Source of the DNA: Myxococcales bacterium | Lineage (GTDB): Bacteria > Myxococcota_A > Polyangia > Fen-1088 | DNA: 13,510 nt | NCBI GenBank assembly: GCA_003170035.1 | Contig: PMZX01000158.1 | Coordinates: 1 to 13,510 of the forward strand | Direction of reading: 5' to 3' | Part shown: piece by piece, positions 1,006 to 12,764 of the stretch | Numbering within the stretch: position 1 is the stretch's first letter | Layout of the letters: each line of letters begins with the position of its first letter | The notes under the pieces: model-generated | Database searches by the model: none | Seen by the model: only the letters and a program-made list of their open reading frames with translations | Told to the model about the DNA's origin: nothing | Program-made: the position numbers and the translations under genes

Positions 1006-4000
1006 TCACCAGGTCTGTGTGTTCAGCCCGCGCGCACGGCGGTCGGGTGCGGGTTTGGGCGTACGGCCGTACCAGGCAGTCTTGGCGGCTGAGACCGGCT
1101 CCAGTTCGAACGGGATGAACAACACCTTGAGGTACCGGTTGCGGCCAATGCGTTCCCACCCCAGCACGCCGAGCAGGACTTCCCACATATAGTCGCCCGG
1201 TCGCTTGACTTGCGACTCCCAGAACGGCACGAACCAGAAGTGCGAGGTTCCGGTCTCGGAGCCCAGGCCCCGGCTGACCCAGATGCTGGGAAAGATGAAG
1301 GTCCCTTCCCAGGTCGGGCGACGGACACCGAAGTAGAAGGGAAACAAGACGGTGGTGCTGCGTTGTTCACTCCAGAAACGCCAGTAGAGCGGGAACGCGA
1401 TGGTGCTGGCGTCGTTGGGCCCGCTACGCCGGTAGAAGAGCGGCACCAAGGTGTAGGTCTGGTCGCTGACCTCGTTGCGGTAGCGCAAGAAGAACGGCAG
1501 GAAAGTGGTCACCCGGCTTTGGTGGTAGGCGTGCACATCGTAGTAGAGCGGCAGGCCCAGGGTGGTGGAGGAGGTGATGTTGCTGCGATGCCAGAAGAGC
1601 AACAGCCAGGTTGAGAGCGAGCGCTCGGGATTGAAATGCGCGTAGTGGAGGAGCGGTGGGATCACCCTGGTCGTGGTTTCGCTGACCTTGTCGCGATACG
1701 AGAACCAGAGCGGGAAGAAGGTCCAAAACCGGGTCTTCCAGTTGTCGCGCCAGGCGAAGTTGCCCGCGTACCACCACAAGCTGTCGGGCGCCTTGCCAAA
1801 GCCGAACACGGCGGTGGCGAAGGTTTGCGACAGACGTGAGTGACTCTCGTAGAAAAGGGGCAGCAGCGTCTCACTGCCCGCCTGGTTCGCGTGGTCACGC
1901 GAATACCAGAAGAGCGGCAAGAGACCGCGGGTGGTTTCGCTGCCCCGGCGCGACCAGAGCAAGGGCCCCGCCAGGTTGAACGAGCTTTGCTCGTCGCGGT
2001 TGGCAAAATGCCAGTAGAGCGGCATGAGCATGGCGTAGCTCTGGCTGCCCTGGCGACCTTGCCACCAGAGCGGGAACAACACATGGGTGCTGCCGTCGGG
2101 CCGGGTCGACTGAAAGTAGAGCGGCGACACCACGTGGCTGGTTTGGGTTTCGTGGTTGCGATGGTAGACGAAGAGCGGCGTCACCAGCAGGCGGCGCTGG
2201 GGACTGCCGGCCGAGACAAACAAGGGGACCAAGCCCGAGGCGTGGCTATGCTGCTGGTCGTTCTGGGTACGGAACCAGGGCCCGACCGTGAGGGTGCGGT
2301 GGTCGCGATCGTGGCTCGACCAGAAGAAGGGAAGGAAGCTGTCCAGTCGGTAACCGTCGTTGCTGCGGCGGCCGAAATAGAGGGGAAACACATAGGTGCC
2401 GGTGTCTCCTGATTCCCGATAGCGTGCATAGAAGGGAAAGAAGACCCGAGTGGTCACGCCCGGGCCATCAACCATGAGGTAGGGCCCGAACATGCGCGTG
2501 CGCTGGCCCGAGCCCTGGAAGTAGTGGTCAAGGTAGAGCAGGGGCACGCCGCGAGCCTGGACCGCGTCGCTGCGGTACCAGAAATAGGGAAGGACGAAGC
2601 CGGCCTGCAGGCCCGGACGGCGGATCCAGGCCGCCAGGGGCGAGGCGAACAGGGTGCTCCGGCTGTCGCGGCGATAGTGCGCGAAGGGGAAGAGGGTGAA
2701 GCTGGTTTCATCCTGGCCGCCCGGCCGTGCCCCGCGGCGATAGTGGAAAAGGGGGAACAAGGCATCGGTGGTTTCGCCACCCCAACTTCGGTGCAGGTAG
2801 GTCCCCACCGCGGTGGTGGTGCGGCCGGCGGCGGCGTCGCGAAACCGCCAGAAGAGCGGGAAGAGAACGAAGTGACTGCGTTGGCTGCCGCCACCCCAGA
2901 AGAGGAGAGGCACGATCCCCGCTGACGAGCCGGTCGGATCCACGTTGCGGAAGAAGAGGGGAGTGATGGTGGTAGAGGTGCCGTGGCGGGGATCGGCGAA
3001 ATGCCATAGCAGCGGAATCTGGATGTGGAAGCTGGCCCCGTCATCGTGCCCAGCGAAGAAGAGCAGGGGTAAAATGGCGACAAGCGAGCTTGTGGCGTCG
3101 CGTGCGTGATACCAGAGCGGGAAGGCCAGCGTAGTACTCGAGTGCCGGTCGCGGAAATGCCAGAGCAGCGGGGCTACGATCAGGTGGCTACGCTCACCGC
3201 GCTGGCCGAAAAACACGAAGGGGGAAAGACCCCCGCTGCTGCCGCCGTCGGAGAAGTGGCGGTGATAGGCCCACAGCGGGAAAATGCCGGCCGCGGTGGT
3301 GCTCTCGTCCGGGGAATGGCGGTGGAAATACAGGGGGAAGAAGCTGTGCGCACTTGCTGCCTGCGCCCGATCGTGGAAATACCAGAAGAGCGGAAAAACC
3401 ACGCGCGTCGACCCGGCGGGATCGAGGCGTTGGTAGTAGGGGCCGACCAGGGTGGTGGTGGCGTCGGCAGGAATGTCGCGATAGCGCCAGTAGAGCAGGA
3501 GGTACGAATCCAGCTCGCTCTGCCGATCGTGCCAGCGCAGGATGGGCGGCAGCAGCCAGGTCAGCCCGTGCGAGCCGGCGTTGTCGTCGCGACGATAGCC
3601 ACCGAGGGGCGACAGATACAGGGCCTTCTTGCCGTGGTCGGCGCGGCTGCCGAGAAAGAACGGCAGGATGAGCTGCCAGTTCGATCCCTTGTCCCGATCT
3701 CGTCCCCACCAGGCGAGCAGGGCAGCCGACCCCATGGACCAGGCGCCGCGCCGGATGTGGAACACAGGCGGGATGATGGTGGTGTTCGACTCCGGTGAGC
3801 GGAACGACCACAACAGAGGAAAGCCGACATCGTAGTTGTAGTTCTTGCTGCGGCCGAACCAGTACAACCAGAAGAAGGCGCCGGTCTTGTTCTCGCCATC
3901 TACCGACGAGTAGCCCAGCCAGGATCCGAAGTAGCCGCCCTTGGGGGTCGCGTGGCGAATTCCCACCGGCACGATGAGCAGGGTCGACTCGTCCCCGCTG

Positions 4001-4818
4001 CGCCAGTAGAAGTTGAGCGGCAAGGCATAGGTGAAGGCCGATTCCTTGGAGCGCCACGAAACGAAGAGGGGAGAGACGTCGAACTTGCGGTCGGGCGACC
4101 GCTTCCAGAAGTAGAGGAAACCGAGAAGGCCGAGGGCGCGGCCTTTGTCCGGATCGCCGACGCTGAATGAGCCCAAAAGCGGCGCGGCCCAGCCGAACTT
4201 GGTCGACGTGTAGAAGAAGGGCCACACCGCCCATGAACGCGCGTCCGGCTGCCGGGTGTGCGAGTAGAGCCCGACCACCGTGACCACACGCTGCTTGAGA
4301 TGGTCTTCGATTCGCCAGTAGAAGGGAAACACGATCTGTACACGGGACTCAGGGCTCCAGAAGTGCCAGTAGAACGGGGCGAGCACCCGGTGGCCCGGGT
4401 TGCCCCGGCGCGACCAGTAGAAGGGGATGAAGTCGAGGGATGCGCCTTCCTTGCGGAAGAGCAAGAGATTGAAGGCCCTCTCGAAGGAGCGACAGACGCC
4501 CTGTTCGCAGATGGTATCCACCGGGCACTGATCATCCCGGCTGCACGCTGGCCCCGCGGCGGTCGTAGTCGTGGTCGTGGCCGTGGTCGTGGCCGGCCTT
4601 GCGAACTCAGACACTCCATCCGGCGCCGGCGCTGCCCTGGCCGGTACCGGTTCCTCTTCGGCCTGCGCCGTGCGGAAGGGCAACAGCGAGCCAGACCGCA
4701 TGTTGCGGGCAAAGGGATCCAGGTTGGTGGCCGACCAGGCGTACCCCGGCAGCCCGATCGCGACTGCCAAACCGGCTACCGCAACCCACGCTGACGGAAA
4801 GAGACGACGTTGTTTCAT
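1006..4818 (-). CDS. Giant exported FPLFW-repeat protein, function unknown
   Basis: A 1,270-residue protein that I cannot assign to a named family. The start at 4818 is chosen because it gives a clean signal peptide (MKQRR, then a hydrophobic core, cleavage likely near residues 28-30) and lies 16 bp after the upstream stop; a start at 4893 would overlap that gene and add an Arg-rich, non-signal N-terminus. Order: signal peptide; low-complexity Ala/Pro/Thr linker with a poly-Thr run (77-86); a four-Cys module at 92-109 (C-x5-C-x5-C-x4-C, CPVDTICEQGVC), a pattern often seen in myxobacterial surface proteins; then about residues 131-1200 made of 50-60 degenerate repeats spaced 17-19 residues. 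The repeat core is hydrophobic-Pro-hydrophobic-aromatic-Trp/Tyr (FPLFWRFRD, FPLYWRFWS, APLLWHFRD), preceded by Ser/Thr and followed by a polar, charged turn. There are no cysteines after 109. A predicted beta-rich envelope protein (barrel, solenoid or sheet) is inference. Last gene of the glyA operon. Confidence 0.85.
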   Translation of the reverse strand: MKQRRLFPSAWVAVAGLAVAIGLPGYAWSATNLDPFARNMRSGSLLPFRTAQAEEEPVPARAAPAPDGVSEFARPATTTATTTTTTAAGPACSRDDQCPVDTICEQGVCRSFERAFNLLLFRKEGASLDFIPFYWSRRGNPGHRVLAPFYWHFWSPESRVQIVFPFYWRIEDHLKQRVVTVVGLYSHTRQPDARSWAVWPFFYTSTKFGWAAPLLGSFSVGDPDKGRALGLLGFLYFWKRSPDRKFDVSPLFVSWRSKESAFTYALPLNFYWRSGDESTLLIVPVGIRHATPKGGYFGSWLGYSSVDGENKTGAFFWLYWFGRSKNYNYDVGFPLLWSFRSPESNTTIIPPVFHIRRGAWSMGSAALLAWWGRDRDKGSNWQLILPFFLGSRADHGKKALYLSPLGGYRRDDNAGSHGLTWLLPPILRWHDRQSELDSYLLLYWRYRDIPADATTTLVGPYYQRLDPAGSTRVVFPLFWYFHDRAQAASAHSFFPLYFHRHSPDESTTAAGIFPLWAYHRHFSDGGSSGGLSPFVFFGQRGERSHLIVAPLLWHFRDRHSSTTLAFPLWYHARDATSSLVAILPLLFFAGHDDGASFHIQIPLLWHFADPRHGTSTTITPLFFRNVDPTGSSAGIVPLLFWGGGSQRSHFVLFPLFWRFRDAAAGRTTTAVGTYLHRSWGGETTDALFPLFHYRRGARPGGQDETSFTLFPFAHYRRDSRSTLFASPLAAWIRRPGLQAGFVLPYFWYRSDAVQARGVPLLYLDHYFQGSGQRTRMFGPYLMVDGPGVTTRVFFPFYARYRESGDTGTYVFPLYFGRRSNDGYRLDSFLPFFWSSHDRDHRTLTVGPWFRTQNDQQHSHASGLVPLFVSAGSPQRRLLVTPLFVYHRNHETQTSHVVSPLYFQSTRPDGSTHVLFPLWWQGRQGSQSYAMLMPLYWHFANRDEQSSFNLAGPLLWSRRGSETTRGLLPLFWYSRDHANQAGSETLLPLFYESHSRLSQTFATAVFGFGKAPDSLWWYAGNFAWRDNWKTRFWTFFPLWFSYRDKVSETTTRVIPPLLHYAHFNPERSLSTWLLLFWHRSNITSSTTLGLPLYYDVHAYHQSRVTTFLPFFLRYRNEVSDQTYTLVPLFYRRSGPNDASTIAFPLYWRFWSEQRSTTVLFPFYFGVRRPTWEGTFIFPSIWVSRGLGSETGTSHFWFVPFWESQVKRPGDYMWEVLLGVLGWERIGRNRYLKVLFIPFELEPVSAAKTAWYGRTPKPAPDRRARGLNTQTW
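1219..4428 (-). repeat. Tandem 17-19-residue coding repeats with FPLFW core (50-60 units)
   Basis: Residues 131-1200 of the giant protein are tandem degenerate repeats. Cores in the best-preserved block fall at residues 476, 495, 514, 533, 550, 567, 584, 602, 620, 637, 654, 672 and 689, a period of 17-19 residues (51-57 bp). Near residues 210-330 and 1000-1030 the period is blurred. On the + strand the cores appear as recurring CCAGAAGAGCGG or CCAGAGCGGGAA words. Copies are clearly diverged at DNA level, so this is an old internal expansion, not a recent duplication. Confidence 0.85.
4561..4590 (-). repeat. Thr-codon simple repeat encoding TTTATTTTTT
   Basis: A short run of ACC/ACG codons (one Ala codon inside) encodes residues 77-86 of the repeat protein, in the linker between signal peptide and Cys module. 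On the + strand it reads as repeated GTCGTG/GTGGTC words, a sequence liable to slippage in multiples of three. It probably acts as a flexible, possibly glycosylatable spacer, which is inference. Confidence 0.6.
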
Positions 4819-4834: not shown

Positions 4835-5389
4835 TCACGGCTGCGGTGGAAGCATCTTCCATTCGCTGTTCTCGCGCACGAAGACCACGTCACCGGTATC
4901 CGAATCCTCGCCCTTCTGGCGCGTGACTTTGAGGGTGGCCGTCTCTCCCTTCACGGATGAACTCTTGATGCTGAACTTGGTCCCCTCTACCTCCTTCTGC
5001 ATCTTCTTGAGGCCTTCGGTCGCCTGCCCCATCTGCGTGGCCAGCATGCCCTGGTACATGAGGGCATAGCAGTCGATCACCTTTTCCATGTTGCCCTCGA
5101 CTAGGGCTTTGCGCCACCGCTCGAAGGTCTTCTCGGGCGTGGAGAATTCAGCCCGCGCAGGCGGAAGCTGGAAGGAGATGCTCTTGATCTTCTCCTTGGG
5201 AACCTTGACCGTCTGCCCCTGGGTTTCGACGGTGAAGACGCCGTCGTAGTAGTGGATGAGCTTGCCGTTCATCTTGGTCTTGTCGAGCAACTCGAAGACC
5301 TCGGCGCGCGCGGCCGGCGCCCACAGGGCGGCCGCGAGCAAGGCCGCCGCCGCCAGGACAGAGGAGCGGACTGTGCGACTTGACGCCAT
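4835..5389 (-). CDS. Small secreted protein, SH3/Sm-like N-terminal part plus NTF2-like C-terminal part (tentative)
   Basis: A 184-residue protein with a clear signal peptide (basic SSRTVR, then Ala/Leu core, cleavage near ARA|EV, residues 29-30). Residues 30-75 read as short strands (VFELLDKTKMNGKLIHYYDG, then a Val-rich strand, then KIKSISF), the pattern of small SH3/Sm-like barrels in secreted bacterial proteins. Residues 84-181 begin with a helix (PEKTFERWRKALVEGNMEKV) and end with strands and a closing Glu-x-x-x-Trp-Lys motif (ENSEWKMLPP), typical of NTF2-like/DUF4878-type folds; both calls rest on pattern only. Start: ATG 5389 is preferred because GAAGGG lies nine bases upstream. The alternative ATG at 5398 overlaps the glyA stop (ATGA) but has its Shine-Dalgarno with no spacing. 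The gene sits between glyA and the giant repeat protein on one strand, so it is probably co-transcribed and may partner the latter in the envelope. Only one Cys (107). Confidence 0.85.
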   Translation of the reverse strand: MASSRTVRSSVLAAAALLAAALWAPAARAEVFELLDKTKMNGKLIHYYDGVFTVETQGQTVKVPKEKIKSISFQLPPARAEFSTPEKTFERWRKALVEGNMEKVIDCYALMYQGMLATQMGQATEGLKKMQKEVEGTKFSIKSSSVKGETATLKVTRQKGEDSDTGDVVFVRENSEWKMLPPQP

Positions 5390-5394
5390 GGTCG

Positions 5395-6654
5395 TCATCC
5401 CTTCACCGAAATTCCAGGGGCCGGGAAGCGGCCGGTCAACTCGCGCACCTCGGTCGCCACGCGGGCCGTGTTCTCGTCGCTCGGGTCGGACATCACCCGG
5501 TCCATCCAGGCCACGATCTGTTTCATCTCTGTGGGTCCCATGCCGCGGCTGGTGACCGCGGGCGAGCCGAGACGGATGCCGGATGGATCGAACGGCTTGC
5601 GTGTGTCGTAGGGGACCGAGTTGTAGTTGAGCTCGATGCCGGCCTTGTCCAGCGCCTTGGCCGCGACCTTTCCCGGGATGTTCTTGTTGGTCAGGTCGAC
5701 CAGGATGAGATGGTTGTCCGTGCCGCCCGAAACCACGTGGTAACCACGCGCCATCAATTCAGCGGCAATCACAGCGGCATTCTTGACCACGTTCTGCGCG
5801 TACTCGCGGAAGGCCGGCTGCGACGCTTCGTGCAGGGCGACCGCGACCCCGGCGGTAGTATGGTCGTGCGGTCCACCCTGCAGGCCTGGGAACACGGCCT
5901 TGTCCAGGGCCGCCGCATGGGCCGAGCGGCAAAGAAACATGCCGCCTCGCGGACCACGCAAGGTCTTGTGGGTCGTGGTGGTGACCACGTCGGCGTGGGG
6001 AACCGGCGAAGGATGGGCACCGCCCGCCACTAAGCCTGCGACGTGCGCCATATCCACTGCAAAACGGGCGCCCACCTCGCGTGCGATCTCAGCCATCGCG
6101 GCGAAGTCCCACAGGCGAGAGTAGGCCGTGCCGCCGGCCCACAGCAACTGAGGCCGTTCGCGGCGGGCCAGGTCCCGTACCTCATCAAGGTCGATGCGGC
6201 CGGTGTCCTTGCGCACCCCGTACTGGACCGACTGGAAGTAGCGACCCGTGATGGACACATTCCAGCCGTGGGTCAGGTGCCCCCCCATGGGCAGGGCGAG
6301 GCCCATCACCTTGTCGCCGGGCTTCAGAAAGGCGAAGTAGACGGCCAGGTTGGCCGGCGAGCCCGAGTACGGCTGTACGTTGGCGTGGTCCGCGCCGAAG
6401 AGCACGCAGGCGCGCTCCTGGGCCAAGGTCTCCAGCGGGTCCACGAACTGCTGGCCTTCGTAGTAACGCTTGCCGGCGTAACCTTCACTGTACTTGTTCG
6501 TGAAGACAGAGCCAGTGGCCTCGAGGACGGCACGCGAGACGTAGTTCTCCGACGGAATCAGGCGGATCTTCTCGGCCTGGCGGCGCTCCTCGGCGCGCAC
6601 CAATTCCAAGACCTTGGGATCGGTCACGGACAAAGGTTCATCGACGAAGTTCAT
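5395..6654 (-). CDS. glyA: Serine hydroxymethyltransferase
   Basis: Cytoplasmic PLP enzyme that interconverts serine plus tetrahydrofolate with glycine plus 5,10-methylene-tetrahydrofolate, the main one-carbon source. At 419 residues it matches the usual bacterial length (about 417). Visible family motifs: YSEGYAGKRYYEG (55-67, folate/PLP tyrosines), the GGHLTHG loop with the ring-stacking His126, VDMAHVAGL with Asp201 and His204, the Schiff-base Lys230 in VVTTTTHKTLRGPRGG, FPGLQGGP (255-262), and the carboxylate-binding Arg361 in SGIRLGSPAVTSRG. All key residues are present. Start ATG 6652-6654 has no evident Shine-Dalgarno, and a promoter-like pair ends eight bases upstream, so the message may be nearly leaderless. 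It is the first gene of a probable three-gene operon with two exported proteins, an unexpected pairing for a central-metabolism enzyme. Confidence 0.98.
   Translation of the reverse strand: MNFVDEPLSVTDPKVLELVRAEERRQAEKIRLIPSENYVSRAVLEATGSVFTNKYSEGYAGKRYYEGQQFVDPLETLAQERACVLFGADHANVQPYSGSPANLAVYFAFLKPGDKVMGLALPMGGHLTHGWNVSITGRYFQSVQYGVRKDTGRIDLDEVRDLARRERPQLLWAGGTAYSRLWDFAAMAEIAREVGARFAVDMAHVAGLVAGGAHPSPVPHADVVTTTTHKTLRGPRGGMFLCRSAHAAALDKAVFPGLQGGPHDHTTAGVAVALHEASQPAFREYAQNVVKNAAVIAAELMARGYHVVSGGTDNHLILVDLTNKNIPGKVAAKALDKAGIELNYNSVPYDTRKPFDPSGIRLGSPAVTSRGMGPTEMKQIVAWMDRVMSDPSDENTARVATEVRELTGRFPAPGISVKG
5399..5404 (-). promoter_or_regulatory. Ribosome binding site GAAGGG inside the end of glyA
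   Basis: On the minus strand GAAGGG directly abuts ATG 5398 but is nine bases from ATG 5389. This decides the start in favour of 5389, while the ATGA overlap with the glyA stop still indicates translational coupling. Confidence 0.5.
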
Positions 6655-6795: not shown

Positions 6796-7266
6796 ATGAA
6801 TCCGATCGCTCGACTGGTTCACACAATTGTTCCTGTTTTCGCCCTGTCCCTCTTCCCACTCGCAGGGTGTGACGACAACTCGGCCGGGTCAAAGCCGCAG
6901 CCGGTGGAGCAGGTCATGCTCCACATCGAGGACGTGCCCGAGGACGTCGCCTGCCTGCGCATCACCGCCACCGGCAGCAGCCGTGAGATGGTGCGTGACC
7001 TCGAGGTCACCGTGGGCCAGGCCGTTGGCGAATCCTTCTCCGGCTTGCCCATCGGCACCGTCGTGTTCCAGGCTGCGGCCTACTCGCAAACCTGCGACAA
7101 AGTGACCAAGACCACGGTGCCCTCCTGGGTCAGCGAGGAGGTTTCTGTCACGGTGAGCCTCACCCACTCCACCAGCGTGTCGCTGACGCTGTACCGGAAC
7201 GGTCGGGCCAAGGTCAGCGTCGGCTTCGATCCCGAGGTTGACGCTGGAGCGCCGGACGGCGGGTAG
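6796..7266 (+). CDS. Small putative lipoprotein, function unknown
   Basis: A 156-residue protein with a short N-region, a hydrophobic segment and a lipobox (FPLAGC) giving a lipidated Cys25 after signal peptidase II cleavage. Asp at +2 (CDDNS) is an inner-membrane retention signal in E. coli; whether that rule holds here is uncertain. The mature part (about 130 residues) reads as alternating beta-strands: EQVMLHIEDVPEDVACLRIT, then a Glu/Val-rich strand, FSGLPIGTVVFQAAAYS, a Val-rich strand, and STSVSLTLYRNGRAKVSVGF. The phrase LPIGTVVFQAAAY followed by a Cys resembles single beta-sandwich (carboxypeptidase-regulatory or Ig-like) domains of surface lipoproteins. Two Cys (57 and 98) could pair. 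I do not recognise a family. It is divergent from glyA and followed by a strong hairpin, so it is probably a single-gene transcript. Confidence 0.85.
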   Translation: MNPIARLVHTIVPVFALSLFPLAGCDDNSAGSKPQPVEQVMLHIEDVPEDVACLRITATGSSREMVRDLEVTVGQAVGESFSGLPIGTVVFQAAAYSQTCDKVTKTTVPSWVSEEVSVTVSLTHSTSVSLTLYRNGRAKVSVGFDPEVDAGAPDGG

Positions 7267-7280
7267 CGCCACGCCCACGC

Positions 7281-7335
7281 CGGCAGCCAAGGCGGGCGAG
7301 TTCATTCACCTCGAACTCGCTCGCGTAGGCTGCCG
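7281..7335 (+). terminator. Long imperfect intergenic hairpin after the lipoprotein gene
   Basis: Left arm 7281-7303 pairs with right arm 7313-7335 over 23 positions: 20 Watson-Crick pairs, one G-U (7295/7321) and two mismatches (7289/7327 and 7291/7325), with a nine-base loop ATTCACCTC. The outer eight pairs (CGGCAGCC/GGCTGCCG) and inner nine pairs are perfect. It begins 14 bases after the lipoprotein stop, a terminator position, but no T-run follows the right arm. It may instead be an mRNA 3'-end stabiliser, a leader structure of the kinase gene, or a dispersed repeat element. Confidence 0.55.
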
Positions 7336-7375
7336 TCCCAAAACTGAGATGTATTGTGATAGCGTGCCCAGGCAG

Positions 7376-8941
7376 ATGGCGGCAGCTCACATGGCAAGCG
7401 CGAAAGATCTCAAAGGCACCCGGCTCGGTCGCTACACCTTGGTCGAGCATCTGGCCACGGGTGGAATGGCGGAGATCTTTCGTGCCTCTCACGAGGCTGC
7501 GGGCGCTTTCCGCAAGGAACTGGTGCTCAAGATCTTGCAGCCGCGCTGGGCGGAACATCCGGCGGTGGTGGAGATGTTTCTGGGCGAGGCGCGCATCGCC
7601 GCCATGCTGGAACATCCCAACATCGTCGACGTATATGATGTGGCCAGCGAGGAGGGGACGCACTACATCGCCATGGAGTACATCCGTGGCAAAACACTGA
7701 CCGAGCTGGCTCGTCGTGCCATCGAGGTCTCACAGCTTCTGTACCTGGACATCGGGGCGCATATCGTGGCCGAGATAGCCGCAGCGCTGGCCTATATGAA
7801 TGAGGGGCTAGACGACAACGGCCAGCCGATGCAGGTCGTGCATCGCGACGTTTCACCCACCAACGTCATCATCGGCACCTCGGGCCAGGTCAAGCTCATC
7901 GACTTCGGGATTGCGCGACAAGGGGCGGCGATCAAGGACGAGCCGGGTATGCGTCCGGGCAAGGCATCCTATATGTCCCCCGAACAGGCACAGGGGGCCC
8001 CGCTCGACGGGCGCTCTGACATCTTCAGCCTGGGTACCATCCTGTACGAAATCACCGTGGGTCGTCGGCTGTGGCGCGGTTCGAGGGCGAACTCGATCCG
8101 CCGCATCGTCGAGGAGAAGCCCGTGCCGCCCACCTATGTGCGGCACGACTACCCTGGCGACCTCGAAATGATCGTCATGCGGGCGCTGGAAAAGAAGCCG
8201 GAGGATCGCTATCAGTCGGCCCACGAATTTGCCGAGGCCTTGCAGTATTTCTTGCAGGATTCGGGTGCCAGGATGCGCAGCCATCATCAGTTGGCGCGCT
8301 ATCTGCGCGAGATCTACTCGCCCGAGGCCGAGGCGCAGATTACCGAGGACGGCCTCCGGCAGGCGCGCATCTTCGCCGAGGGAGATGAGGATGGCCGGCA
8401 GGAAGATGTCGAGCCTCTCGATTTCGATCAGGCTTTGGGCGACGGCCCGGGCGCGGCGCTGGCCAGGGCTTTGCGCGCCGCCGGGTCAGCCCTGGGGCCT
8501 GGAGGACCTGCGGCCTCTGCCCGCATTTCGCCGAGTGCCGACGAGGCGCCATACCAGGAGAGCGGTGCGCCCGCGGCCATAGAGGACGGGCAGGGGGCGT
8601 CCGTTGCGTCTCGCAGCATTTCGCCCAGCGCCGAGCAAGCGCTGGGCCAGGACAGTGCTCCGTCCGCGGCCACGGATAATGGGCAGATGGCGTCCGTTGC
8701 ATCCGACGGGACGCCGGTTCGCGTTTCGCCGGGGGACTCGGGTTCTGCCGATCCGTCAGCGTCCCACTCAGCCGCAGCGCCGCGCCAGACGCCTGTCGTG
8801 GTGCGCGCCGTCCCCGCCAAGAAAGCCGCCGGCAAGAATGACAAGGTGCCCAGGTCGGTGCCACTCGCGGCGGTCCTGTTCGTGGCTGTGCTGCTCGCTG
8901 CTGCCACGGCTGGCCTGGTGTGGCTGCTTCGCGGCGGCTAG
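7376..8941 (+). CDS. Hanks-type Ser/Thr protein kinase with C-terminal membrane anchor
   Basis: A 521-residue eukaryotic-like kinase. Domain about 17-295: Gly-loop LATGGMAEIF (26-35, first Gly replaced by Ala), ATP-binding Lys52 in LVLKIL, helix-C Glu71, catalytic loop HRDVSPTN (157-163), DFG at 177-179, SPE at 201-203 in place of APE, Asp215 and Arg278. All catalytic residues are present, so it should be active. Residues 296-495 are a low-complexity linker with two 31-residue repeats. A single hydrophobic segment (about 496-517) ends four residues from the C-terminus, so the kinase is cytoplasmic with no extracellular sensor domain. Start: 7376 is favoured because the frame upstream runs through the hairpin at 7281-7335; ATG 7349 or 7391 remain possible and none has a strong Shine-Dalgarno. 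The next gene, 65 bp downstream, is GltJ/AgmX-like and may be co-transcribed and a substrate; that is inference. Confidence 0.93.
   Translation: MAAAHMASAKDLKGTRLGRYTLVEHLATGGMAEIFRASHEAAGAFRKELVLKILQPRWAEHPAVVEMFLGEARIAAMLEHPNIVDVYDVASEEGTHYIAMEYIRGKTLTELARRAIEVSQLLYLDIGAHIVAEIAAALAYMNEGLDDNGQPMQVVHRDVSPTNVIIGTSGQVKLIDFGIARQGAAIKDEPGMRPGKASYMSPEQAQGAPLDGRSDIFSLGTILYEITVGRRLWRGSRANSIRRIVEEKPVPPTYVRHDYPGDLEMIVMRALEKKPEDRYQSAHEFAEALQYFLQDSGARMRSHHQLARYLREIYSPEAEAQITEDGLRQARIFAEGDEDGRQEDVEPLDFDQALGDGPGAALARALRAAGSALGPGGPAASARISPSADEAPYQESGAPAAIEDGQGASVASRSISPSAEQALGQDSAPSAATDNGQMASVASDGTPVRVSPGDSGSADPSASHSAAAPRQTPVVVRAVPAKKAAGKNDKVPRSVPLAAVLFVAVLLAAATAGLVWLLRGG
8522..8707 (+). repeat. Two imperfect 93-bp (31-residue) repeats in the kinase linker
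   Basis: Unit 1 covers residues 383-413 (RISPSADEA...GASVASR) and unit 2 residues 414-444 (SISPSAEQA...MASVASD); 17 of 31 positions are identical. At DNA level GCATTTCGCC and GCGTCCGTTGC recur with a 93-bp period. Both units carry a Ser-Pro site in an Ile-Ser-Pro-Ser motif; a third, degenerate motif (RVSPGDSG) follows. The repeat is probably a duplication in a disordered linker, possibly an autophosphorylation region. Confidence 0.75.
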
Positions 8942-9006: not shown

Positions 9007-11193
9007 ATGAAGTTCGTCTGCGATCGCTGTCAGACCCGCTACTCCGTAGCGGATGAGAAAGTCAGACAGCGGATTCTTCGCATTCGTTGCAAGACCTGCG
9101 GCAACGTCATCACGGTGCAGGCCGGCGAGGTGGTCCCCGGTCCCGCGGACGCCTCCAGGCGGCCGGAGCCTGCTGCTTCGGCCGGTTCCACACCGCCCCC
9201 GCGCCCCTCATCAAGGCTCTCGCGTCCGCTCTCGGGTCTCCATGAGTGGTTCGTGTCGGTCGATGGCGCTGAGCGCGGCCCGCTGAGCTGCACCGATGCG
9301 GCGAAGTACATCGTGTCGTGCAAGCCGGAGCAGTCGATCCATGTCTGGAAGGAAGGTATGGATGGCTGGAAGCGGCCCAAGGACGTGGCGATCATCGCCC
9401 AGGAAATCACTGCGCTGAGGCTGCCGCCGGCCGGACCATCGCCGCCTGCGCCGGTGCGCGCCGACACTTCCTCTGCTCTCCGCCCCGCGCCATCTGCGCC
9501 GGGGGTTCAAGCTCCTGGCGTCAGGCCGAAGCCGCCGCCGGCTGGAGGTCTTGGCTCCGGCCCGAAGCTGCCGCAGCCCGGCTCGGGTCTCAAGCTGTCA
9601 TCGACTATTCCCGGATCGGGCCCCAAGCCGCCACCCGTTCCCGGATCGGGCGCCAAGGCGGCGCCACCGCCGATCCCCGGGTCAGGACCCAAGGCACCGC
9701 CGCCTGTTCCTGGGTCCGGTCCCAAGCCTGCGCCGGCTGGAGTTTCTGGCCCAGAGCGGGCGCGACCTCGGATTTCGGGCTCCCAGTCTGTGCCCGGGAT
9801 GACTGGTTCTGAACCAAAGCTACCGTCGCCGACCGCAGGATCCGGCGCCCGGTCGCCACAGTCGGTCTTGCCAGACTCGGCCGCGGAAACGCCTCTGCCG
9901 GCCTTAGGCGCGGACGCGCCGCACCTGAGCCCGCGTTCGGTGCCCAAGTTGTCAGTGGTGCCGTCGCCGAAGAAGGGACCAGCCTTGCCGGGCCTGACGC
10001 CCCTGAGCGCGGGGCTTCCTACGCCTACACCCGCGGTGGAGACGGAATTCGACAAGGCGCCTACCACCAAACCCGAGAGGCGAAAGTCCGGGACTCGAGA
10101 AGTCAGCGCACGCGGTCCGCAGTTGCCGGACATCGCGCAGCCGACAGCCTCTCGAGAGCAGATGGATGCAGACGAACTCGAGCAGGGGGAGAAGACGCCC
10201 CCGCCCCGCAAGCCCCTGCCGCCCATCGTGGCCCCGGGGCCCGACGGTCACGCTGGGAAGGATTCGCGCTTGTCAGCCTTTGCTCCTGCCTTGCCGCCGC
10301 CCCTGCCGCAGCCGTTCGACTGGTCGGGCACAGGCTCGGCCGCAGCGGCCACGATGAACCCTTCGGCAAAGTTAGCCCCGCCAGCGGGTTCCTTGTTCGG
10401 CAACGTGGCGGCCCTGCCCGCTACGCTTTTTCCCGCGGCACATGACGAAGCTGGCTTGTCCAAGTTAACTGGTCTGGCGACCCTGGCCCGCCGGCACCGA
10501 CACCTCAAGTACGTCATCGCGGCCGGCATCGTGGTGGTTCTTGTCATCCTGGTCATTCTGCTTTCGTGGCGAGGCGAGAGTGGGAAGGCCGCGGGGTCTA
10601 TCTTGAGGCGTGCCGCGCCCGTCGCACCAGCCCCACCCTCGGGCGAGGTCGAGCCGCCAGCGCAGGAGGTGACCACAAGTGAACCGGAGGCCCGGCCGAA
10701 AGTGCGAGCCGCCGCGCGGTCCGCGTCCAAGCGATCGGCGGTCGTCCATTCCGCAGGCCCGTCGGGCAAGGCGGCTGCGGTGGGAGAAGACCCCTTCGAG
10801 AGATCATCGGCTCGATCCCACTCTGTCGAGCGGCCGGTGCCGGTCGAGACGCCAAGCCGGTCTCGCCCCCCGCGTTCCGGCCCGTCGGGTCGCGAGGTCG
10901 GGGCGATTTCCCAGTCGCAAATCAGCGAGGTCGTGAGGAACAAGGGGAACCAGGCCGGCCTGAAATCGTGCTACGAGCGAGCGCTGAAACGCGATGGGCA
11001 ATTGCGCGCGGGCCGACTGGACATCACGGTGTCAATTGGCGAGACGGGCGTTGTGCAGAATGTTCAGGTCCATGGTTCGTCGGATTTCTTGCTCATCGAC
11101 GGCTGCATCAAGAATGCCATCCGGCACTGGCGTTTCCCCGCGAACGTGGAGGAATACGCGACGAGCTTCCCGCTGATCCTGCAGGGGGGCTAG
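9007..11193 (+). CDS. GltJ/AgmX-like protein: zinc ribbon, GYF_2 domain, Pro-rich linker, one TM, AgmX/TonB-like C-terminus
   Basis: A 728-residue protein whose domain order matches the myxobacterial gliding-motility protein GltJ (AgmX), which links the cytoplasmic GTPase MglA to the envelope. Order: MJ0042-type zinc ribbon 1-40 (Cys5, Cys8, Cys28, Cys31); GYF_2 domain about 79-131 (EWFVSVDGAERGPLS, then VWKEGMDGW); Pro/Ser/Gly-rich linker 135-495 with PGSGPK repeats; one membrane segment 501-520 (YVIAAGIVVVLVILVILLSW); charged periplasmic spacer; and a C-terminal domain 637-727 (GLKSCYERALKRDGQ, then DGCIKNAIRHWRFP) with Cys655 and Cys700, probably disulfide-linked. The start is set by the usual MKFxCxxC beginning of such ribbons. 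In Myxococcus xanthus gltJ lies in a glt cluster; none of those partners is visible here, and the neighbour is a Ser/Thr kinase, so it may be a paralogue with another role. The 65-bp gap upstream contains a 7-bp inverted repeat (8945-8951 with 8991-8997). Confidence 0.92.
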   Translation: MKFVCDRCQTRYSVADEKVRQRILRIRCKTCGNVITVQAGEVVPGPADASRRPEPAASAGSTPPPRPSSRLSRPLSGLHEWFVSVDGAERGPLSCTDAAKYIVSCKPEQSIHVWKEGMDGWKRPKDVAIIAQEITALRLPPAGPSPPAPVRADTSSALRPAPSAPGVQAPGVRPKPPPAGGLGSGPKLPQPGSGLKLSSTIPGSGPKPPPVPGSGAKAAPPPIPGSGPKAPPPVPGSGPKPAPAGVSGPERARPRISGSQSVPGMTGSEPKLPSPTAGSGARSPQSVLPDSAAETPLPALGADAPHLSPRSVPKLSVVPSPKKGPALPGLTPLSAGLPTPTPAVETEFDKAPTTKPERRKSGTREVSARGPQLPDIAQPTASREQMDADELEQGEKTPPPRKPLPPIVAPGPDGHAGKDSRLSAFAPALPPPLPQPFDWSGTGSAAAATMNPSAKLAPPAGSLFGNVAALPATLFPAAHDEAGLSKLTGLATLARRHRHLKYVIAAGIVVVLVILVILLSWRGESGKAAGSILRRAAPVAPAPPSGEVEPPAQEVTTSEPEARPKVRAAARSASKRSAVVHSAGPSGKAAAVGEDPFERSSARSHSVERPVPVETPSRSRPPRSGPSGREVGAISQSQISEVVRNKGNQAGLKSCYERALKRDGQLRAGRLDITVSIGETGVVQNVQVHGSSDFLLIDGCIKNAIRHWRFPANVEEYATSFPLILQGG
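9547..9735 (+). repeat. PGSGPK-type Pro/Gly repeats in the GltJ-like linker
   Basis: Residues 181-243 contain six units of 9-12 residues built on PGSGPKxPPP (GSGPKLPQ, PGSGLKLSS, PGSGPKPPPV, PGSGAKAAPPPI, PGSGPKAPPPV, PGSGPKPAPAG). Codons differ between units. They suggest a flexible, extended cytoplasmic tether between the GYF domain and the membrane; the PPPV/PPPI runs are the kind of Pro-rich peptide that GYF domains bind, so self-binding is conceivable. Confidence 0.7.
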
Positions 11194-11245: not shown

Positions 11246-12637
11246 TTAGCCTTTCCACCAGGCGAGCCAGTGAATCCGGCCGCTCGTCCCTTCCATCCAA
11301 AGAGACAGGGCCGTCGACAGAACGAGCCAGAGCAGCCACGAAGCCGCAATTGCGGCCGTGGCCTTTCGCGAAGGCCAGCCACCGGAGAGAGAGAAGCCGA
11401 GAAAGGGCAGAGCCATCAAGAACACCGGGTAGCCGTACCGGCTTTCGACCATAACTGTCGCGAGAAACCCCAGGTCCGCAACGATTGCCGCAGCCAGAAA
11501 GAGGAGCAGAGCCCTCGTCCCCGATGGCAGTTCTCGTCGGTGTCTCAGGAAGCGGATGAAGCCAAGAGCGATCAGAAACCACGCCGTCTGAAGCAGGAAC
11601 GAGGCCGGAAAACGGCTTCGTGCATAGTAGTCCGTAATGTAGGTGTCGACACGGCCCCAGTCGAGGGCTGCAAACATGTGCGCAGCGGCGCTGCGCGAAA
11701 ACGCCAGCGGCGATTTCATCGCAAATTCCAGGAGCGAATGACACGAGTTGTCCTCCCATGGGTTCGCGAAGCAGAGGGGAGGGGGTTCGCCAGGAATAAC
11801 GACGCCGACAAGCTTCAGGCAGCGCATCGCTCCGTGCGTCTGCGCTGTGTAGAGGGGTACGTGGATGATGGGCGTCCAGTGGTTGAACTTGGTGACGTTC
11901 ATATAGAGTTGCGGCACGAAGACGGCCAAGGAGAGAGCAAAACTCAGGAGGATCTTTGGGAGCCGTATCGGTTCGACATACCGCCGCACAGCCAGACCCA
12001 ACAATGCAATAGGGATGAAGAGCAAAGAGGCCGGACGAACCATCACCGCAGCGGCAAAGGGCAGGGTCGCGAGGAGACGATTTTTGCGCAGGCGCAGGTC
12101 CCCGAACAGTAGCTTGTTGAACCCGCAGGCCACCAAGCAGGCCGCCAAGATGTCGGTGAGAAACAGAGTCGTTGCTTGCACCAGGTACGGATTGAGCGCC
12201 CCCGCAGCAAAGACAAGATGGCCGGCGGCCCTGTTTCCCGTCAGCTTGACAGACGTGGCGGCGACTAGCCTGAGCGAGTACAAGAAAACCGCGTACTGGA
12301 AGACGCAGATAAGGGCCTTGCTCGCCGGACTGGCGCCGAACAGGAGCTTGGCAAAGGCGATCAGGAGAGGATAGAGATAGGTCCGCAGGTCGTCCTGAAA
12401 TCCAAATAGGCCGTGATTCAGAATCCGCTCGGCGACGAACACATAGTAGTTTTCGTCGTAGTAACTGACACCCACGTTCTTGACGAGATATCGGACAAAG
12501 AGCCCGAGGGACCCCAGCATGACCGCCACGGTGAAAGCAACGGGCCAGTGAGGCCAGTTCCGAACCGAGTCGGCGAGGAGTTGGCGACCCTTCTGAGTTG
12601 GCCCAGAGGATGATGACGGTTGATCAGCTGGGGACAT
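11246..12637 (-). CDS. Polytopic membrane glycosyltransferase, GT-C / GT39-like
   Basis: A 463-residue inner-membrane protein with about ten hydrophobic segments, the first at 32-51. Such proteins transfer sugars from polyprenyl-phosphate carriers on the periplasmic face. Supporting marks: Asp61-Glu62 in SYYDENYYVFVAERIL just after TM1, the acidic pair of the first periplasmic loop that is catalytic in GT-C enzymes; LNPYLVQATTLFLTDILAA (148-166), matching the second conserved loop with Thr-Asp; MVRPASLLFIP (199-209); and ESRYGYPVFLMALP (398-411), the usual C-terminal E-x-RY-x-x-P motif. The start at 12637 is chosen because GGAGAAG lies nine bases upstream and a candidate promoter would start transcription near 12729, downstream of the longer start at 12745. 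Exact donor and acceptor are unknown. Divergent from rfbH, so it probably belongs to a surface-polysaccharide locus extending to the right. Confidence 0.85.
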   Translation of the reverse strand: MSPADQPSSSSGPTQKGRQLLADSVRNWPHWPVAFTVAVMLGSLGLFVRYLVKNVGVSYYDENYYVFVAERILNHGLFGFQDDLRTYLYPLLIAFAKLLFGASPASKALICVFQYAVFLYSLRLVAATSVKLTGNRAAGHLVFAAGALNPYLVQATTLFLTDILAACLVACGFNKLLFGDLRLRKNRLLATLPFAAAVMVRPASLLFIPIALLGLAVRRYVEPIRLPKILLSFALSLAVFVPQLYMNVTKFNHWTPIIHVPLYTAQTHGAMRCLKLVGVVIPGEPPPLCFANPWEDNSCHSLLEFAMKSPLAFSRSAAAHMFAALDWGRVDTYITDYYARSRFPASFLLQTAWFLIALGFIRFLRHRRELPSGTRALLLFLAAAIVADLGFLATVMVESRYGYPVFLMALPFLGFSLSGGWPSRKATAAIAASWLLWLVLSTALSLWMEGTSGRIHWLAWWKG

Positions 12638-12646
12638 GAAGGGATG

Positions 12647-12653
12647 CTTCTCC
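12647..12653 (-). promoter_or_regulatory. Ribosome binding site GGAGAAG for the glycosyltransferase
   Basis: GGAGAAG is nine bases upstream of ATG 12637 on the minus strand. It is the best Shine-Dalgarno among the possible starts (12745, 12673, 12637) and supports the 463-residue form. Confidence 0.6.
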
Positions 12654-12735
12654 GCTGTCGGTGGGTGTGCCATGCGTCCGAGACGGTGCGCACGGGAGAG
12701 GGCAGGGGCGGCCTCCCGAACTGCGACAGGCCGAG

Positions 12736-12764
12736 CAGATAGCACGCGTTCGATGCTCGCTCAA
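12736..12764 (-). promoter_or_regulatory. Candidate extended -10 promoter for the glycosyltransferase
   Basis: Reading leftwards, TTGAGC (12764-12759) and TATCTG (12741-12736) are separated by exactly 17 bases, and the -10 is preceded by TGC, the extended -10 motif. Transcription would start near 12729, giving a leader of about 90 bases before ATG 12637. The last three -10 bases do not match consensus. Confidence 0.35.

Follow-up and report, generated by a model that had tools for sequence, protein, structure and literature searches.

A predicted open β-hairpin ribbon with one hydrophobic edge, built from FPLFW repeats in an exported-type protein of a Myxococcales bacterium

What fold could a bacterial protein adopt if most of its length consists of about 63 copies of a short, aromatic, proline-containing unit, and where would such a fold reside? 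A 1,270-residue protein encoded in a 13,510-nucleotide stretch of DNA from a Myxococcales bacterium (contig PMZX01000158.1, assembly GCA_003170035.1) raises this question. We analyzed the whole stretch, here called the window. A first-pass annotation had described the protein as exported, with a signal peptide, a Thr tract, a Cys module, and 50 to 60 "FPLFW" repeats, and had considered a single barrel with more strands than SprA, a solenoid, or a novel sheet. We found that sequence and structure models agree on an exported-type, all-beta repeat protein with these N-terminal features.

We found that the FPLFW repeat is real. The core motif xP[LFYVIW][FLYWV] occurs 46 times in the repeat body, versus a mean of 7.4 (standard deviation [SD], 2.5; maximum, 15) in 2,000 shuffles. 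The periodicity of aromatic and aliphatic residues peaks at 17.5 residues with a power of 79, compared with at most 13.7 among 300 shuffled sequences, and motifs are mostly spaced 16 to 20 residues apart where units adjoin directly. Counted from the 126 predicted strands, there are about 63 units, slightly more than first estimated, ending near residue 1196.

AlphaFold2 models of the window protein and of a 594-residue relative had predicted local distance difference test (pLDDT) scores of 76.6 and 93.1, respectively. Both models place two six-residue strands in each FPLFW unit and the conserved Pro in a turn. The predicted unit runs from a strand at about −7 to −2, through the turn x-P-x, to a strand at about +2 to +7, followed by a charged turn and the next hairpin. 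The first and last few strands of the window protein are predicted at low confidence, and the overall shape of the two models is uncertain (predicted template modeling scores, 0.32 and 0.57). We also ran a coupling analysis at four repeat spacings. Hairpin pairs were recovered in four of eight tests and antiparallel pairs with the next unit in two of four, the agreement with hairpin topology coming at the two best-sampled spacings. At all four spacings, the pairs expected of one long strand per unit and those of a parallel solenoid failed to exceed the null (0/4 each). We therefore rejected the parallel solenoid and the earlier idea of a single 9- to 11-residue strand per unit. Taken together, the models and couplings make it highly probable that the window protein forms a continuous, open, single-layer antiparallel β-meander in which each unit is one hairpin. 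Of the folds first considered, the novel sheet is the one that fits. The predicted ribbon would have a width of about 2 nm; with 126 strands at the 4.8-Å strand spacing of β-sheets, its length in an extended state would be about 60 nm. A Pro inside a barrel strand had seemed a puzzle; because both models place it in a turn, the puzzle disappears.

In the two models, turns alternate between the edges of the ribbon, and the edges differ. Turns on one edge contain Pro in 83% and 77% of cases and carry 0.08 and 0.03 charges each; those on the opposite edge contain Pro in 34% and 17% and carry 0.98 and 1.62 charges. When strand residues are counted from the Pro-turn edge, d1 and d2 are hydrophobic, with Trp at d2 the commonest residue or level with Phe, Arg is found at d5, and Ser, Asp, or Glu is found at d6. 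Scored on the Wimley-White interface scale, the hydrophobicity gradient across the ribbon amounts to 0.95 and 1.13 kcal/mol per residue (null SD, 0.07 and 0.13). The difference between the two faces is near zero (0.00 [SD, 0.06] and −0.16 [SD, 0.10]). According to the models, then, the ribbon is edge-amphipathic: the Pro-turn edge, made of the F-P-L turns and, in each strand, the two residues next to them, is hydrophobic on both faces, Trp, Tyr, and Phe come next, Arg lies farther out, and the other edge is charged. A face-amphipathic belt was rejected, as the faces showed no clear difference. Membrane interfaces show a similar succession of aliphatic residues, Trp/Tyr, and Arg, and for this reason we favor edge-on insertion into one leaflet.

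We tentatively propose that the protein is an exported hairpin ribbon whose hydrophobic edge is inserted edge-on in one membrane leaflet, a reading that we rate at a little short of an even chance. The protein would be exported and fold into the open meander, its Pro-turn edge would be buried in a single membrane leaflet, probably of the outer membrane, and the ribbon would stand edge-on as a long scaffold. The exported-type N terminus, repeat, hairpin topology, edge polarity, and conservation were obtained by computation; from there we infer the insertion, the membrane, and the scaffold role. A bolder version, which we consider doubtful, is a new bacterial class of freestanding β-sheet, a single-molecule ribbon of 30 to 60 nm with its Pro-turn edge in one outer-membrane leaflet along its whole length, acting as a fence or ruler. 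Among the best 120 of 390 relatives, length varies rather little: 111 are 1,200 to 1,350 amino acids (aa) long in a search that allowed about 700 to 2,200. That list follows score order, however, which favors close relatives, and family sizes range from about 530 to more than 1,800 aa; a strict ruler role is therefore speculative.

Something must cover a hydrophobic edge, and the same fold and edge polarity would also fit ribbons that zip together by their hydrophobic edges to form a fibre, a sheet, or a layer of the envelope, extracellular or periplasmic, without membrane insertion. One paper describes the CPAP G-box as capable of supramolecular assemblies and MORN1 as dimerizing (PMC7725318); against this, another describes the CPAP TCP domain as predominantly monomeric in solution (PMC3776556). 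Edge pairing alone would also leave hydrophobic parts of both faces exposed, and we consider such assembly unlikely, if still a serious competitor.

Alternatively, the ribbon might curl into a long groove or spiral that carries or wraps lipid with its hydrophobic edge inside, on the model of the ApoB β-belt, YD shells, or AsmA/LptD-type grooves. Such a groove needs one hydrophobic face, and the ribbon faces hardly differ. The top 10 Foldseek rows contained no global match (template modeling [TM] score, 0.03 to 0.09; root mean square deviation, 40 to 70 Å), and the neighbors elsewhere are hisS or a DUF4878-like gene; we doubt this alternative. Comparison with viral structures gave a TM score of 0.11 for the match with the best E value, and none of the matches listed exceeded 0.22.

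A giant outer-membrane barrel, or several barrels, is very improbable given the six-residue strands with Pro in turns, the like faces with a polar half in each strand, and the higher scores of open sheets than of barrels in structure comparison; given the uncertain global shape of the models, we disfavor it rather than dismiss it outright. We also rejected the reading of the terminal Trp as a barrel signal for the family at large. Trp is the final residue in 121 of 139 long relatives, but the tail ends in an aromatic residue in only 25 of 62 long relatives below 50% identity, some of which are possibly incomplete proteins. The terminal Trp thus appears to be a clade-specific trait.

If the proposed reading of an edge-amphipathic ribbon is right, its closest architectural parallel is the TCP domain (G-box) of CPAP/SAS-4, likewise an open single-layer β-meander. 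That domain has a freestanding meander of about 20 strands, which the paper on it calls unique among natural proteins, to its authors' knowledge (PMC3776556). CPAP is a eukaryotic centriole protein, its TCP domain is hydrated on both sides whereas the predicted ribbon has one hydrophobic edge, and Protein Data Bank (PDB) searches with the window protein and with profile A4 of the family found no sequence homology. With 126 predicted strands, the ribbon would have six times as many as the domain once called unique, and the family is predicted to extend the CPAP-type architecture to 60 to 126 strands, to build it from a new repeat, and to give it a greasy edge. It would offer a testable case of how so long an open sheet can fold, avoid aggregation during export, and encounter a membrane. 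MORN arrays (MORN1 and junctophilin) share with the ribbon models two six-residue strands per repeat in an extended sheet. The MORN unit, in contrast, has 23 residues with GxG and YEGEW, and the ribbon unit has 17.5; YEGEW is absent from the 1,270 residues and GxG occurs five times. Pfam gave no MORN match for the window protein (E ≤ 1) or for 50 diverse members (E ≤ 0.01). The ribbon also differs from the OspA single-layer sheet, which has flanking domains, from the ApoB β-belt, which covers lipid, and from the closed teneurin/Rhs YD shell. The YD repeat of Rhs and teneurin has a YDxxGR-type motif, and YDxxG-type motifs numbered zero in proteins P0001 and P0130.

The suspicion that no named repeat family fits was supported as far as Pfam goes: it found no family on the repeats of the window protein, only subthreshold matches on the Cys module. 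Among the 50 diverse members, Pfam at E ≤ 0.01 matched EB in four, DUF7107 in two, and Dickkopf_N in one. PHROGs gave no match at E ≤ 1, and the PDB searches returned no chains at E ≤ 10 for the window protein and none at E ≤ 1 for profile A4. By sequence, the family is thus without a Pfam family of its own and without a solved relative. The NCBIfam model LA_1737_Cterm (NF047486), whose name we take to be a Leptospira locus tag, matched the window protein at an E value of 1.8e-8 and 34.5 bits, versus a cutoff of 60 bits. It also matched 32 of 50 A4 members at E ≤ 0.001, at different places within the repeats. The best of these (E = 3.8e-20) probably exceeds the cutoff; all 22 single-protein scores lie under it (highest, 58.9), and none of 188 phylum genomes exceeds it. 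Formal membership of the window protein does not follow from these scores, although homology of the repeats is detectable, and LA_1737 and FPLFW repeats are probably units of one kind. The entry carries no function, and a confident match to a characterized family, set by the first-pass annotation as grounds for refuting its idea, did not turn up. Literature searches found no paper by title on the LA_1737 family and, for the FPLFW motif or giant barrels, none on this protein family. The ribbon model offers a possible structure for repeats of the LA_1737 type, which had lacked an explanation.

We searched for relatives with the window protein and found 390 of 7,995 scored proteins at E ≤ 0.001; the best 120 are 43 to 89% identical, most over at least 90% of the length. 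A profile of eight relatives of about 555 to 680 aa found 173 of 7,997 proteins, and querying with a 1,581-aa relative gave 539 matches among 5,652. Among the matches listed, names, where given, are "hypothetical" or "EB domain-containing," and organisms, where given, are Polyangia, Polyangiaceae, Myxococcota, Myxococcales, Deltaproteobacteria, or Proteobacteria. The window protein was matched in 42 of 59 whole genomes of relatives. The profile search of Myxococcota genomes that had been suggested found A4 at E ≤ 1e-10 in 97 of the 142 genomes sampled from the class (89 of 128 among the good ones) and profile A3 at E ≤ 1e-6 in 44 of 282 genomes of a phylum-wide draw, 3 of them outside the class. 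A scan of genome contigs gave 15 loci, all from Myxococcales, Deltaproteobacteria, or Proteobacteria, and no spread to other phyla was established. Judged from these sequences, there appear to be at least three forms: a long form (about 1,080 to 1,350 aa), mostly with the Cys module and a DUF4878-like partner; a short form (about 530 to 1,030 aa) downstream of hisS; and f6 (open frames of about 1,220 to 1,665 aa), several near PlsX/FabD. The window's own assembly holds a second repeat-gene copy (locus L002, G000:C198, positions 1 to 2517; cut by the contig end; 84% identity), which is either a paralog or a contaminant from a sibling species. A sister genome carries a C-terminal remnant of 152 residues (L034, positions 8001 to 8456) about 18 kb from a full copy on the same contig.

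The repeat gene was assigned to the minus strand; plus-strand frame 1 across it is broken by stops. A crude h-region test indicated a signal peptide in 129 of 139 long relatives and in 71 of 85 short ones, and a lipobox-like pattern occurred in 2 of 139 and 4 of 85. The four-Cys pattern lies within the first 170 residues in 131 of 139 long relatives and in none of the 85 short ones. The C-terminal module has pLDDT values mostly below 50 in the window-protein model and of 79 to 94 in the P0130 model.

Table 1. Features of the repeat gene and its apparent operon in the window
Feature	Positions	Strand	Basis
Gene for 1,270-residue repeat protein	1006..4818	minus	ATG 4818, stop 1006
Predicted signal peptide, residues 1-29, without lipobox	4732..4818	minus	Sequence
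Thr-rich tract, residues 77-86	4561..4590	minus	Sequence
Four-Cys module, Cys 92/98/104/109	4492..4545	minus	Subthreshold EB/DUF7107/Dickkopf_N matches
Predicted β-hairpin ribbon, residues 116-1196, ~63 units, 126 predicted strands	1231..4473	minus	Repeat statistics, models, couplings
Conserved C-terminal module PGDxxWExLLGxxGxERIGRNRxxKxLFIPFEL	1087..1230	minus	Related form in long and short members
C-terminal tail ARGLNTQTW, Trp last	1009..1035	minus	Relatives' tails
Exported-type 187-aa operon partner, weakly DUF4878-like	4835..5398	minus	Below cutoff; directly upstream
Serine hydroxymethyltransferase (SHMT), first gene of apparent operon	5395..6654	minus	Pfam SHMT 2.5e-154

The SHMT gene, the 187-aa partner gene, and the repeat gene are arranged head to tail. 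The partner scored 19.3 bits against Pfam DUF4878, versus a cutoff of 24.1, and one of three distant homologs matched DUF4878 weakly and two did not. Its best NCBIfam match was LB_137 (E = 0.001, far under the cutoff), by name probably another Leptospira-named family. A member of the partner's cluster of open reading frames (ORFs) is the immediate upstream neighbor in 18 of 24 long-type loci, two of which, L033 and L044, look like one locus; among the loci lacking it, L040 and L042 extend to a contig end or are close to one. The SHMT ORF cluster is upstream in 10 of the 24, and SHMT is probably merely a neighbor. In short-type loci, hisS is upstream in 22 of 27, Pfam confirmed in L043 only and assigned by clustering in the others. 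We rejected the neighbors as a functional clue, hisS and the DUF4878-like gene both being uninformative.

A convergent plus-strand gene at positions 1 to 990, open from the window start, had no Pfam or NCBIfam match; homologs of 35 to 97% identity lie beside the repeat gene in several relatives, another follows the L002 copy, and one lies near the L034 remnant. Beyond the apparent operon, the plus strand encodes a Ser/Thr protein kinase (7238 to 8941) and then a Zn-ribbon/GYF_2 protein (9007 to 11193) with a subthreshold TonB_C match. A 499-aa hydrophobic, membrane-protein-like ORF on the minus strand (11246 to 12745) matched nothing significantly in Pfam (PIG-F came closest; E = 0.51) and by eye resembles a GT39-type glycosyltransferase.
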